From Acinetobacter larvae (GTDB lineage: Bacteria; Pseudomonadota; Gammaproteobacteria; Pseudomonadales; Moraxellaceae): DNA of 64,000 bases. The translations under genes were made by a program, and so were the position numbers. The notes under the pieces are model-generated. The model was not told the origin of the DNA. It worked only from the letters and a program-made list of their open reading frames with translations, and ran no database searches. The DNA lies in the NCBI RefSeq assembly GCF_001704115.1, contig NZ_CP016895.1:3224001-3288000 (forward strand). Direction: 5' to 3'. Below, one piece after another: positions 13,540 through 18,477 of this stretch; the first letter of the stretch is position 1; the number at the start of each line of letters is the position of its first letter.

Positions 13540-14874
13540 TTAGCCTTGTTGGCGAGCTTGTTGCTCTTTCAACAATTCGTCATAGCTTACCACGGTATCA
13601 GTCACTTTCGCTGTTGCTAAGATGTGATCAACAACTTGGTCTTCTAATACAACTGCTTCAATTTGCGCACGTTGCTGTTGGTCATTTTTGAAGTATTCAA
13701 TCACTTCCGTTGGATCTTCATAAGAAGAAGCCATATCTTCGATATATGCTTCAACGCGTGCAGCATCAACTTCTAAGTTGGCATCAGCCAAAACTTTGCT
13801 GACCAAAATACCCAATTTAACAGATTTTTCAGCTTGTTCTTTAAACAACTCATCTGGCAACATGCTGCTATCAAATGCTTTGGCACCTTGTGCACCAAAC
13901 TGTTGTGTGAACTGCTGAATCATTTGTTGACGTTGACGATCAATCTCTTGTGCCAACATTGCGTTTGGAACTTCAACCTCGTTTGCAGCAACCAATGCAT
14001 CAAACGCAGCGCCTTTCACTTGGTTACGTAAGCCATTTTTAACTTCACGTTCCATGTTCTTACGGACATCTGCTTTTAATTTATCAATTCCATCTTCTTC
14101 AGAAATACCAAAGATTTCTAAGAACTCAGCATCAATTTCCGGTAATTTTGGTTTTTCAACCAATTTTACATTGATTTTAAATTGAGCAGCTTTACCAGCA
14201 AGATTTTCAGCTTGATAGTCTTCAGGGAATGTTACATCGATAACTTTCTCTTCGCCTTTTTTCATGCCGATAATGCCATCTTCAAAGCCTGGAATCATGC
14301 GACCAGAACCCAATACCAATTGGAAATCTTGCGCAGAGCCACCTTCAAATTTTTCACCATCAATGCTCCCTTCAAAATCGAAAGTCACTTGCATGTCTTT
14401 TTTCGCCATACCTTTGGTTTCTACCCAAGTTTGACGTTGTTTTTGCAAGTTTTCGAGCATCGCATCTACGTCAGCATCTTTGATTTCGCTAGATTTACGT
14501 TCAATCTCTAGACCATCAAAAGCTTTCACTGCAACTTCTGGATAAACTTCAACAGTTGCTTCATAGACTAAAGCATCGTCTTTGTTTTCGACTTTCTCAA
14601 TGTTCGGCATGCCGACTGCATTGATTTTTTCTTGTTGGATTGCTTCAAAAACCGTATCACGAATCAAATCGTTTACGACTTCTTGGTAAATACCTGCACC
14701 ATATTCACGGCGAACAACGTTTAAAGGCACCTTACCTTTGCGAAAGCCATTGATCTTCGCAGTTTTGGCAGTGCGTTTTAAACGAGCCTCAAATTGCTCG
14801 TTGACACGGCTCGTCGGTACAGAAACATTTAAACGACGGGCAACGCCCGAAACCGCTTCAGAAGTTACTTGCAT
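13540..14874 (-). CDS. tig: Trigger factor, ribosome-associated chaperone and prolyl isomerase
   Basis: Binds at the ribosome exit tunnel and shields nascent chains. The start is the ATG at 14874, preceded by GAGGAAGCC and giving [17 protein letters not shown]; a longer in-frame start would add nine residues without support. The ribosome-docking loop is [13 protein letters not shown] (about residues 41-53; family signature GFRxGKxP). The central FKBP-type domain begins near residue 150 ([22 protein letters not shown]). The C-terminal helical arms end in a Gln-rich tail. Length (444 aa) is normal. Confidence 0.97.
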
Positions 14875-15272
14875 GGCTTCCTCTATATCTTTAGTCATCA
14901 AAACAGTTTTAAAAAAAGTGCTACATTATATGCCAACATTTATAGATATACAAAATAGTAAACCTGCTTTCAGCAACCAAGATAAAATATTATTTTATTT
15001 CAATAGATTACCAATCGGATCACTCACTATTCTTCTATAAGACTGTAATGTTCGCTGTAATTCTGTAGTCACTTCAGAAATTTGCATAGAATAGTCTTGT
15101 ATTTTAAATATATTTTCAAGCAAATCTGCAAATTTAAGCAACTTAAAATAAGATTTCCTCGAAAAACAACAGTCTTCTGTTGTTTTTCGCTTTATTGCAG
15201 ACGATATTTTCTGTGCGTTGTAGCACAACCAGAATGATCGCAAAAAATTTCATGATTCAAGGCATTTAGCAA
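14875..15272. other. Intergenic region between tig and the leuA leader
   Basis: AT-rich DNA between the divergent tig and leuA units. It should hold the tig promoter near 14880-14960. The one clear element is the 12-bp perfect hairpin at 15161-15188. An 82-codon minus-strand frame (14995-15243) has no recognisable domain or ribosome binding site, and I do not call it a gene. Confidence 0.6.
15161..15188. terminator. Perfect 12-bp hairpin with T-tract, orphan terminator-like element
   Basis: GAAAAACAACAG pairs perfectly with CTGTTGTTTTTC around the tetraloop TCTT. U-rich tracts occur on either strand. No gene ends nearby on either strand, so the transcript it would stop is unknown; a small RNA or a tig 5' leader are possibilities. 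Confidence 0.6.
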
Positions 15273-15301
15273 TTGACAGGACCTCAGCGATCACGTAATT
15301 T
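15273..15301 (+). promoter_or_regulatory. Predicted sigma-70 promoter of the leuA leader
   Basis: A consensus -35 box TTGACA (15273-15278) is followed after 17 nt by TAATTT (15296-15301), a weak -10 box. An alternative -10, CGTAAT, lies two nt further upstream. Either would start transcription within a few nt of the leader ATG at 15309. Confidence 0.6.
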
Positions 15302-15308
15302 TAGGGTC

Positions 15309-15398
15309 ATGAATACTATCCCAACTATTCTCGCCCTCCTCCCTTTATCAGATCTATCTTTGCATCTGATGCGTATGCTGCGCGTTGCGCGCATATAA
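15309..15398 (+). CDS. Leucine-rich leader peptide of leuA (29 codons)
   Basis: A short ORF with ATG at 15309 and TAA at 15396-15398. It encodes 29 residues, of which eight are Leu (codons 8, 10, 11, 13, 16, 18, 20 and 24), four Ile and one Val. The central run reads ILALLPLSDLSLHLM. Five different Leu codons are used (CTC, TTA, CTA, TTG, CTG). Such Leu density 140 nt before a leucine-biosynthesis gene fits a ribosome-stalling leader peptide that senses charged tRNA-Leu. The ribosome binding site is poor (AGGG only 2 nt before ATG), and the predicted transcription start is nearly at the ATG, so translation may be leaderless. Confidence 0.75.
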   Translation: MNTIPTILALLPLSDLSLHLMRMLRVARI

Positions 15399-15422
15399 TT
15401 TTTTTACAGCCAGTCCTTGGCT
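15374..15422 (+). promoter_or_regulatory. leuA attenuator: hairpin plus T-run overlapping the leader ORF end
   Basis: Codons 24-29 of the leader form a hairpin: TGCGCG (15379-15384) pairs with CGCGCA (15388-15393), or an alternative register uses TATGC/GCATA plus GCG/CGC with a bulged T. A run of seven T follows (15399-15405). Just downstream, AGCCA/TGGCT (15408-15422) forms a small hairpin whose loop region includes TCCTTG, the exact complement of CAAGGA in the leuA ribosome binding site (15521-15526). Both transcription termination and translational control are therefore possible. Confidence 0.55.
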
Positions 15423-15480
15423 ATCGCCCTAACAACAAATTGTATTTAACCGTATTGAAAATAGATAAAATCTAGTGCCA

Positions 15481-15517
15481 TACATTGCCTAAAGCAGTCC
15501 GATCTGTAGGTAATGTA
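15481..15517 (+). promoter_or_regulatory. Stem-loop immediately upstream of the leuA ribosome binding site
   Basis: TACATTGCCTA pairs with TAGGTAATGTA over 11 positions (one G-U). The 15-nt loop can add a CAG/CTG inner stem. It ends 4 nt before AAGGAG (15522-15527), so it lies next to the leuA initiation site. Confidence 0.5.
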
Positions 15518-15534
15518 AAGCAAGGAGTTCTGAA

Positions 15535-17232
15535 ATGATGTTGGCTGATCCAAGTAAAAAATACCGTCGCATGTACCAACGCGTCGATTTGCCCGACCGT
15601 CAATGGCCGAATAAAGAAATCGAGCAGGCACCACTTTGGATGAGCACAGATCTCCGTGACGGTAACCAAGCTATTTTTGAACCCATGAACATTGAGCAAA
15701 AATTTAAAATGTTTCAAATGTTGGTCAAAATTGGCTTTAAACATATCGAAATCGGCTTCCCGTCTGCATCACAAATTGATTTTGACTTTACCCGTAAACT
15801 CATTGAAGAAAACCATATTCCAGATGATGTTTATATTGAGGTATTGGTGCAGGCTCGTGATCACTTGATCGAACGAACTTTTGAAGCATTGGCTGGTGCA
15901 AAACGTGCAATCGTGCATATCTATAATGCCAACTCACCGACTTTTCGTAGCAAAGTATTAAATGTCGATATTGCTGGTGCCAAAGCATTGGCGGTAAATG
16001 CTGCCGAAAAAGTAAAACATTATGCGGCACAATATCCAGCAACAGAGTGGATCTTCCAATATAGCCCAGAATGTTTCAGTGCTACTGAGCTTGAAGTTGC
16101 CAAAGACGTCTGTGACGCCGTAACTGAAATTTGGGATGCACGCCCAGAGCATAAAGTCATTCTCAATTTACCTGCGACAGTCGAAGTCTCAACCCCAAAT
16201 GTTTATGCCGATCAAATCGAATGGATGCATCGTAATATTGCCCGTCGTGATGGCGTATTGATTTCGGTACATTGTCATAATGACCGTGGCTGTGGTATTG
16301 CAGCCTCTGAACTTGCCATTATGGCAGGCGCTGATCGGGTCGAAGGCTGTGTCTTTGGTAATGGTGAACGTACCGGTAACGTTGATATTGCAGCCATCGC
16401 CTTAAATATGTATAGCCAAGGGGTTGCACCGCTTTTAGATTTTTCGAACATCAATGAAATCATTGCCACCATTGAAGAATGCACCGGTTTACCCGTACAC
16501 CCGCGCCATCCTTATGCAGGGGACTTGGTCTTTACTGCCTTCTCTGGTTCACACCAAGATGCCATCAAAAAAGGGTTCGAGTTCCAAAAAGACCAAGACA
16601 TTTGGGATATGCCTTATTTACCGATTGATCCCAAAGATTTGGGACGCGACTATGATGCGGTGATTCGTGTCAACAGCCAATCTGGTAAAGGCGGCATTGC
16701 GTATCTCTTAGAATCGCATTATAACGTTTCCTTGCCGCGCCGCTTACAAATCGAGTTCTCACAAGTGGTACAGCAAGTAACCGATGAAGAAGGGACTGAA
16801 ATTACCGCCCAAGAAATTTGGAAACTCTTCAAAAAAACCTATGTCGAGAGTAAAGATGGCGCATACCGCACAGAAAGCTATAAACTTTCTGATCAAGATG
16901 GTAAACAAGTCATTGAATTACAGCTCAATATAGACGGTGAGTCGCGTCAGATTCGCGGTGAAGGTAATGGTCCAATCTCAGCCATTTTAGATGCACTTCA
17001 ACTACCGATTGATGTTCTCAATTATGAAGAACGCAGTATCAGTGCAGGTGCAAGTGCCAAAGCTTTGGCCTTGCTAGAAGTACAGATTAAAGGGACTGGA
17101 CGTTCAACATTTGGTGCGGGTGTACACGATAATATTGTCACCTCATCGATTGAAGCGATTATGTCTTGCATCAATCGCTTGATCGCCCAAGGCGTATTAG
17201 ACAAATCTCAACTCGGTGCGGCCGCGGTTTAG
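15535..17232 (+). CDS. leuA: 2-isopropylmalate synthase
   Basis: First committed step of leucine synthesis: condensation of acetyl-CoA with 2-oxoisovalerate. At 565 aa it belongs to the long LeuA2-type group. N-terminal TIM barrel motifs are [10 protein letters not shown] (about residues 37-46) and the metal-binding VHCHNDRG. The C-terminal region, from about residue 430, is the regulatory domain for leucine feedback ([30 protein letters not shown]). The start ATG has AAGGAG 7 nt upstream. Expression is probably controlled by the leader described just upstream. Confidence 0.97.
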
Positions 17233-17249
17233 CTGTCAGCCGAATAAAT

Positions 17250-17287
17250 ATTTTGACAGGATGAGACTATCGCCATCCTGTCAAAAT
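17250..17287 (+). terminator. Inverted repeat between leuA and metX, likely leuA terminator
   Basis: A 14-bp perfect stem (ATTTTGACAGGATG / CATCCTGTCAAAAT) with a 10-nt loop, 18 nt past the leuA stop and 33 nt before metX. The trailing T-run is short, so it might instead be a partial terminator or an operator for metX. Confidence 0.6.
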
Positions 17288-17319
17288 TCACTGTATGAAT
17301 ATAGGAACGTATTGATTCT

Positions 17320-18477
17320 GTGTCTTTTCCAGCTGACTCGGTGGGTATTGTTATCCCACAAAAAATTGTATTCGAAGAGCCCCTCGCCCTTGAATGTGGT
17401 CGTGTATTACCGCGCTTCGATATCATGATAGAGACTTATGGCACACTCAATGCAGATAAGTCCAATGCAATTCTAATTTGCCATGCGCTCTCTGGGCATC
17501 ATCATGCTGCGGGTTATCATCATGCCGATGATAAAAAAGCAGGTTGGTGGGACAGTTGTATTGGTCCCGGCAAAGCCATCGATACCAATCACTACTTTGT
17601 GGTTGCACTCAACAACATTGGTGGCTGTAGTGGCTCGACCGGTCCAACCTCCCCGAACCCAGAGAATGATAATCGCCCTTATGGTCCAGACTTTCCGCTC
17701 GTGACGGTACGTGACTGGGTCAAAACCCAAGCCATGTTGTCCGATCGTTTAGGAATCGAGGTCTGGTATGCCATTGTGGGAGGATCTTTAGGCGGCATGC
17801 AGGCATTACAATGGTCCATCGACTACCCAACACGGCTACAAAAATGCGTCGTGGTGGCCAGTGCGCCGAAGCTTTCGGCACAAAATATTGCCTTTAATGA
17901 AGTGGCACGACAGTCTATTTTATCCGACCCTGATTTTTATGACGGGCGTTATTTAGAACATGATAGCTATCCACGCCGTGGGCTGATCTTGGCACGCATG
18001 GTTGGACATATTACCTATTTATCCGAAGAAGCCATGAAACAAAAATTTGGTCGTGATTTAAAATCAGGTAAATTTATGTATGGTTTCGATGTGGAATTCC
18101 AAGTCGAAAGCTATCTACGTTATCAAGGTGAACAATTCAGCCGTAACTTTGATGCCAATACTTACCTGATTATGACCAAGGCTTTGGATTATTTTGATCC
18201 ATCACGAGAATTTCAACAATCTCTGACCCAAGCCATGGCACAAACCCAATGCCAGTTCCTGATAATTTCTTTTACTACAGATTGGCGGTTTAGCCCGCAA
18301 CGCTCACAAGAAATTGTGGATGCGCTGATTAGCAATCAAAAACCTGTGAGTTATTTAGATATAGACGCTGAACAAGGGCATGACTCTTTCTTGTTCCCCA
18401 TTCCCCTATATGTCAAGTCACTCCGAGCCTTTCTGAGCGCGGCTTCAGAGCGCACAACAGCACAGGAGTCCATATAA
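17320..18477 (+). CDS. metX: Homoserine O-acyltransferase (MetX)
   Basis: Alpha/beta-hydrolase enzyme that acylates homoserine at the entry to methionine synthesis. The nucleophile elbow is [12 protein letters not shown], and [12 protein letters not shown] is the conserved early block; the Asp and His of the triad lie near the C-terminus ([11 protein letters not shown]). Whether it prefers acetyl-CoA or succinyl-CoA cannot be read from general similarity, as MetX proteins of both types exist. The GTG start is weakly supported because AGGA is about 14 nt upstream. metW follows without a gap. Confidence 0.93.

Follow-up and report, generated by a model that had tools for sequence, protein, structure and literature searches.

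Upstream of leuA, Acinetobacter larvae carries a short, leucine-rich reading frame that runs into a GC-rich, terminator-like hairpin followed by seven T, and the best overall explanation of this arrangement, the proposed mechanism included, is probably that of a leader-peptide transcription attenuator of leuA. That the element is a leucine-related leader attenuator appears highly likely from the sequences compared; the specific step by which a ribosome at the Leu codons would itself block the hairpin comes from modelled folds and is put forward tentatively. Such a design would be simpler than classical attenuation and suggests a way to probe how tightly ribosome and polymerase are coupled, besides providing a concrete hypothesis of leucine control for leuA in Acinetobacter.

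All coordinates refer to the window, i.e., the whole stretch of 64,000 nucleotides of contig NZ_CP016895.1 that was analysed, and the features of the leader region are collected in Table 1. The long ORF at its downstream end, which we take to be leuA, encoding 2-isopropylmalate synthase, has a product that is 83–87% identical to proteins of named Acinetobacter genomes.

Table 1. Features of the leuA leader region, in window coordinates
Feature	Position	Strand	Remarks
-35 box TTGACA of the leader promoter	15273..15278	+	read from the sequence
Proposed -10 box TAATTT	15296..15301	+	17 bp after TTGACA; 3/6 matches to TATAAT
Leader peptide ORF	15309..15398	+	ATG to TAA, 29 codons, 8 Leu
Hairpin P1, possible RNA-polymerase pause hairpin	15346..15371	+	inside the leader ORF
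Terminator-like hairpin T	15373..15396	+	GC-rich, 10 pairs, one bulge
T7 run	15399..15405	+	directly after hairpin T
Hairpin P3	15408..15422	+	just past the T run
Shine-Dalgarno AAGGAG of leuA	15522..15527	+	read from the sequence
leuA	15535..17232	+	ORF, 565 aa

The leader and its predicted 5′ end

The product of the leader ORF is MNTIPTILALLPLSDLSLHLMRMLRVARI*, and its Leu codons are, in order, CTC, CTC, CTC, TTA, CTA, TTG, CTG and CTG. The original prediction had described a 29-codon frame in which Leu is encoded eight times by five different codons, and a TTGACA box just upstream, and reading the sequence bears out both. It had also placed a hairpin and seven T between the frame and leuA. 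Both are present, but the hairpin overlaps the ORF rather than following it: hairpin T covers codons 22–29 plus the first base of the stop, and the TAA (15396–15398) starts at its foot. Taken from the ATG, the 117-nt leader RNA has a folding z of -3.04. A scan for terminator-like sites in 15150–15560 found three, where 50 shuffles gave 0.4 on average; two are registers of hairpin T and the third lies at 15160–15189.

A promoter consensus scan of 15150–15560 listed no promoter, because the proposed -10 box matches TATAAT at half of its positions. The sequence CGTAATTTTA and the 17-bp spacing are also found in four related species (genomes G140, G101, G125 and G138). Judged from the boxes, the transcription start is predicted at about 15307–15309, 6–8 nt past TAATTT, and 15309 is also the first base of the leader ORF. 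The distance from TTGAC to ATG, 30 nt in the window, recurs elsewhere: in 101 leuA upstream regions (87 from outside the family and 14 from Moraxellaceae), 43 of the 59 Leu-rich ATG/TTGAC pairs have a spacing of 28–33 nt, the remaining ones being scattered from 8 to 60 nt, and non-Leu-rich ORFs of the same regions have 3 of 9 pairs at 28–33 nt. The MKTN-type leaders of Acinetobacter have no TTGAC at the corresponding place. From the recurring spacing, the 5′ end is predicted to fall no more than a few nucleotides from the AUG, and we infer that the leader mRNA is leaderless or nearly so; a start of this kind would be a case that links start-site choice with the translation of a leader.

Conservation in Acinetobacter, the family and beyond

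Among 149 genomes sampled from the genus, a leuA match was obtained in 146 (three were without), and the upstream stretch was fetched for all 146. The pattern CTGCG[CT]N3-5[GA]CGC[GA] occurs in 66 of these, with an ATG-started frame running through the hairpin in each, and two further genomes (G032 and G077) have a frame of this kind as well, their hairpin reading GTGCC..GGCAC instead, which brings the total to 68/146. A looser scan, for any ATG ORF of 12–45 codons that ends on a GC hairpin, recovers 63 of these 68 leaders as well as all seven from the genera g10 and g12 (see below), and it found no leader in the other 78 Acinetobacter genomes, all of which it covered. As a check on the original prediction, the conservation of ORF and hairpin thus gives a mixed outcome, with both kept in 68 Acinetobacter and not found in 78. 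An exact MKTN-type core pattern was found in 48/148 genus genomes with one match each, shortly before the leuA match as judged by eye. Named Acinetobacter loci share leaders with the relatives sampled from the genus, as in the case of A. baylyi (L036; MKYVFAFSSKTPSMMALLMLRQARV) and G121.

Outside the genus, 89 family genomes had some match, and the upstream regions of 24 were read, with one g12 genome (G183) left out. The leader is present in 4/4 genomes of g10, two of whose leaders are identical to those of Alkanindiges (L050 and L051), and in the 3/3 that were read of g12. It was found in none of the remaining 17 family genomes read, whose LeuA is only 49–62% identical over the compared part; the looser scan flagged two of the 17, with ORFs unlike this leader. 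In all 75 leaders the stop is TAA and the reading frame passes through the core hairpin, and the TAA lies 5 nt past the hairpin in 67, 3 nt in three, 8 nt in one and 20 nt in four.

Hairpin T has compensated changes, GCGU:ACGC in G055 and GUGCC:GGCAC in G077 and G032, and the peptide end varies where the hairpin stays (ELRYTRI, LLCLRHG, LLCLWHA, MLRFLRA, ALLRLAHI). That the hairpin is kept with paired changes while the peptide end varies points to selection at the RNA level, and it seems from these comparisons that the hairpin, more than the peptide, is what is kept. The reading of the recurring end LRxAR as an arrest peptide was rejected since the peptide end changes while the hairpin stays. 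For covariation, an alignment of 34 segments was used, 41 of the 75 leaders being left out as near-duplicates. In the register UGCGC:GCGCA, 98.8% of 170 cells are paired and two cells are changed on both sides; two of 500 shuffles reach three of the five measures, and 92 and 500 reach the others. In the bulged register, 90.8% of 272 cells are paired with two both-side changes, and between 28 and 196 of 500 shuffles reach the five measures. Controls slid by +2 or -2 are nearly as well paired, the arms of T pairing in two registers owing to their GCGC repeats. Covariation thus lends hairpin T a support that is real but slight.

In 60 of the 68 genus leaders, a run of at least four T is located within 16 nt behind the core stem, versus 858 of the 3700 16-mers sampled along these regions. 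The U run is weak or missing in some leader-bearing relatives (G138, G140, G144 and G036), and likewise in the betaproteobacterial leaders that were read. The folding of P1 and P3 covered 39 of the 75 leaders, the other 36 being left out. P1 is present in the window group, g10, g12, G077 and G032, and its arms differ across the relatives yet stay complementary (AUCAGAU:AUCUGAU, ACAAGC:GCUUGU, GCAAGC:GCUUGC, CAGGCU:AGCCUG, CAGGCC:GGCCUG); its z ranges from -0.1 to -4.1, and in G101 (-0.3) and G125 (-0.1) it folds no better than shuffles. MKTN-type leaders, among them the one from A. nosocomialis, showed no P1. P3 also recurs, its arms differing from relative to relative (GCC:GGC, GCCUA:UAGGC, GUCUGC:GCAGAC), and is weak or missing in G014, G077 and G032.

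The 61 distinct leader peptides all have CTG as the codon that opens the hairpin, a Leu codon that is itself part of the stem. Counting back from it, position -2 holds a Leu codon in 54 of the 61 (CTG in 45) and position -3 in 46 (CTC in 37). The window species is unusual in having Arg and Met at these two positions (CTG ATG CGT ATG CTG CGC). Taken together, CTG and CTC make up 72% of the 346 Leu codons in the 61 leaders (CTG 42%, CTC 30%) versus 26% in 27 long ORFs of the window (CTG 15%, CTC 12%). The variety of Leu codons in the window had been taken earlier to mean that several tRNA-Leu isoacceptors are sensed; this is unsupported, as the mix of five codons is not conserved and the conserved positions are CTG and CTC.

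Leaders of similar make-up are found farther away. The leuA upstream regions taken from outside the family number 87, with 59 named loci, mostly betaproteobacterial, and 28 from a class-wide draw. Because the named loci were picked by LeuA similarity, the following fractions do not estimate natural frequencies: in 29/87 (25/59 named, 4/28 class-wide) a TTGAC box within the searched range accompanies a Leu-rich ORF, and in 29/29 of these the ATG stands 29–32 nt past the box. Examples are the leaders of Methylobacillus gramineus (MKIQQTTFVSFLQALFGLGLLLRLARI), Paraburkholderia ultramafica (MYRAQTTLSLLLARSTGLGLLLRASI) and Parvibaculum sedimenti (MDRKRPATLALLRALLLERGLLCA). The likeness of the leader ends (GLLLRLARI) may have been shaped by the hairpin. 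In nine of the non-family leaders a long stem forms in the folds between the ORF start and the segment before T, and these may work differently. A wider reading is that of an old, Proteobacteria-wide family of leuA attenuators to which the window element and the beta- and alphaproteobacterial leaders would all belong, in which a message starting at its AUG carries an ORF that ends inside its own terminator and the leucine-starved ribosome acts as antiterminator; this we regard as conceivable, with the balance tilted against it.

A further GC-rich hairpin between leader and leuA, like CTGCGACTGC..CGGTTGCCGGGCC..GTGGCAGCCCGGCA, was seen by eye at about 1390–1450 of locus L107, and also in L059, L065, L067, L068, L074, L274, L280, L281 and L284; it is perhaps a second leader or an RNA element.

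Proposed attenuation and its alternatives

In the proposed mechanism, ribosomes would start on the leaderless or near-leaderless message, and a hairpin T that is free would, together with the U run, end transcription. When charged tRNA-Leu is short, a ribosome would be held at the Leu codons beside or inside the 5′ arm of T; by covering this arm it would keep T from folding, and the polymerase would continue into leuA. The antiterminator would then be the ribosome itself, rather than an alternative RNA fold, and P1 may hold the polymerase until the ribosome arrives.

This was followed in 75 leaders by constrained folding with a 27-nt ribosome footprint placed at each codon, a treatment of equilibrium folding only in which the pairs of T were counted independently of register. 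T mostly forms while the ribosome occupies codons farther upstream, and a ribosome just before or in T abolishes it. With the invariant stem codon excluded, 102 of 183 blocking codons in the 61 distinct peptides are Leu versus 137 of 1070 permissive ones, and the bias of Leu toward blocking codons is seen in 53 of the 61, the sequences being related and the Fisher P ignoring that relatedness. On the window leader, a full block of T comes only from the invariant stem codon L24; a ribosome at L20 cuts T to 5.7 of its 9.8 pairs, and none of the three other blocking codons is Leu versus 7 of the 19 permissive codons. Because the permissive codons hold its Leu, a starved ribosome on the window leader would halt first at codons 8–11 with T intact, and the window species fits a direct covering of T poorly in these models. 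Moreover, a fast ribosome close behind the polymerase would also cover T, the ORF running through it, so that termination when leucine is plentiful would need the polymerase to be ahead of the ribosome. If a stalled ribosome blocks the hairpin and a moving one does not, something must set the timing, perhaps P1. On account of the poorly fitting window codons and of the cover by a moving ribosome, we place the direct-cover step at slightly less than an even chance.

The usual picture of attenuation has three hairpins in competition, and its leader ORF ends before the terminator. In a classical scheme of this kind, stalling at the upstream Leu codons would set free a stretch of RNA that acts as a separate antiterminator by pairing with the 5′ arm of T. 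P1 would be placed for this, since in the window group as well as in g10 and g12 it recurs immediately 5′ of T; the G125 sequence is able to form GCAGC:GCUGC across the 5′ arm, and the non-family leaders with a long stem beside T (e.g., CAGACC:GGUCUG) fit as well. Against this, a ribosome on the Leu codons 8–18 of the window leader leaves T with 9.6–9.9 pairs in equilibrium folding (9.8 when free), so that no mutually exclusive antiterminator of the leuL type appears there, the comparison showed no rival fold kept across the family, and the leader ORF does not end ahead of T. We consider the classical scheme unlikely.

The same low probability is given to control by Rho or polarity, in which the leader and a C-rich stretch would set the loading of Rho, T being a pause or a spacer and not an intrinsic terminator. 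It would agree with the lack of a U run in the betaproteobacterial leaders that were read and in several from Acinetobacter, and with the C-rich TCGCCCC or CCCCCTCCTGTTG that was seen by eye after the leader in a number of these; it is opposed by the T runs behind most genus stems and by the T7 of the window itself. As an observation on the window, a C-rich TCGCCC stretch follows P3 in 15408–15445 and recurs in relatives.

In E. coli pyrBI, the leader ORF runs through the terminator, the ribosome can block it, and UTP is sensed via the speed of the polymerase. The leuA leader shares the ORF that passes through the terminator and differs in that pyrBI senses UTP without amino acid codons. By analogy, the leader could sense the general coupling of translation and transcription rather than leucine, with its Leu codons being incidental. 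The frame that passes through the core hairpin in every leader speaks for this, as do the position of most window Leu codons outside the blocking zone and the A. brisouii-type leaders, which have few Leu (MPMLFAIASALWFELRFART). The enrichment of Leu beside T in most of the distinct peptides and the finding of the exact core pattern only at leuA speak against it, and such a pyrBI-like sensor seems somewhat less probable still than either the classical scheme or Rho.

Finally, an equally Leu-rich ATG ORF of 15–40 codons was present in 49 of 2000 dinucleotide shuffles of 15180–15534 (about 2.5%), which makes the window ORF on its own weak evidence; its status as a leader is supported by its conservation in 68/146 Acinetobacter and in 7/7 genomes from two other genera, and a chance ORF within an AT-rich gap, contradicted by the conserved frame, stop position, TTGAC spacing and hairpin of the relatives, is extremely improbable.

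Known systems and the neighbouring sequence

The leader of the enterobacterial leu operon (leuL) is an attenuator of the leu genes, and the original prediction had leuA of the window regulated in the same way. Attenuation by leader translation does stand as the best reading, given the conserved ORF and the compensated hairpin, and the leader resembles leuL in having a Leu-rich ORF and a terminator-like hairpin with a U run before leuA. The likeness to enterics does not extend further: no strong antiterminator fold was found, the stop is at the foot of the terminator, the start is predicted to be nearly leaderless, and there is no match to an Rfam leader. In the search of 14000–17500, none of 4227 Rfam families gave a leader at E up to 1, two matches inside leuA being rejected as chance, far below their gathering scores, and ten related loci gave no match at E up to 0.05.

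Parallels to the single features have been published. Attenuation of leu in Salmonella is mentioned in a passage of PMC7298713, where the leader RNA rnTrpL of Sinorhizobium meliloti is described as beginning with the ATG of the leader ORF. This ATG-start is shared with the present leader, for which it is predicted from promoter spacing only; S. meliloti trpL differs in being a Trp leader of an alphaproteobacterium with a described antiterminator. Leader peptides before ilvBNC and leuA of Corynebacterium glutamicum are named in a passage of PMC4046766, with the same list in PMC3890552; the former cites a title on leader peptide formation without a ribosome binding site (ilvBNC), and the putative leuA leader has four consecutive Leu codons. 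By these descriptions, they are likewise leader peptides of branched-chain amino acid genes, the difference being that C. glutamicum is an actinobacterium. For candidate actinobacterial ilvB leaders, PMC1262725 describes runs of Ile, Val and Leu codons that overlap a candidate terminator hairpin, and the same source notes that codon changes were without effect in Streptomyces coelicolor ilvB and calls the mode of regulation unclear; such leaders share with ours the codon runs overlapping a hairpin and differ in gene and phylum. The words leuA and leucine do not occur in the main text of PMC2965389. No report of this Acinetobacter leuA leader was found among the open-licence papers searched, a scope outside which most subscription papers fall. 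Each feature thus has a precedent elsewhere, and their combination before a proteobacterial leuA was not found described in that literature.

Between the leader and leuA, 15453–15527 is a possible second control region with a promoter-like AATAGAyAmmATmTA element and, just before the leuA Shine-Dalgarno, a stem-loop (TACATTGCCT..AGGTAATGTA, structure by eye). Likenesses of both were seen in many Acinetobacter, also in those without the leader (GTAG..GTTGC..GCAAC..CTAC); RNAalifold gave essentially nothing for the stem-loop in two automatic alignments (0.0 and -0.29 kcal/mol). The idea, formed by eye, that CTCCT in the leader might pair with the Shine-Dalgarno of leuA was dropped, as the g10 and g12 leaders are without CTCCT.

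A second LeuA-like gene, 49% identical, lies 52 kb before the window (G000, contig C1, 3172017–3173693), and no leader of this type was found in the 601 bases examined there. On the upstream side of the leader, the terminator-like site at 15160–15189 is a symmetric hairpin of 13 pairs between leuA and the divergent ORF 13540–14901, presumably trigger factor, with no evident gene end at the hairpin. The gap beside this ORF matches in 19 of the 37 other relatives searched only over about the first 50 bases next to its start, with one further 28-base match elsewhere. In A. nosocomialis and relatives, an inverted repeat, TTTAGATGTGATATATCTAAA, stands upstream of the leader (L014, L015, L016, L019 and L034, and with one change L032), and is a possible regulator site.
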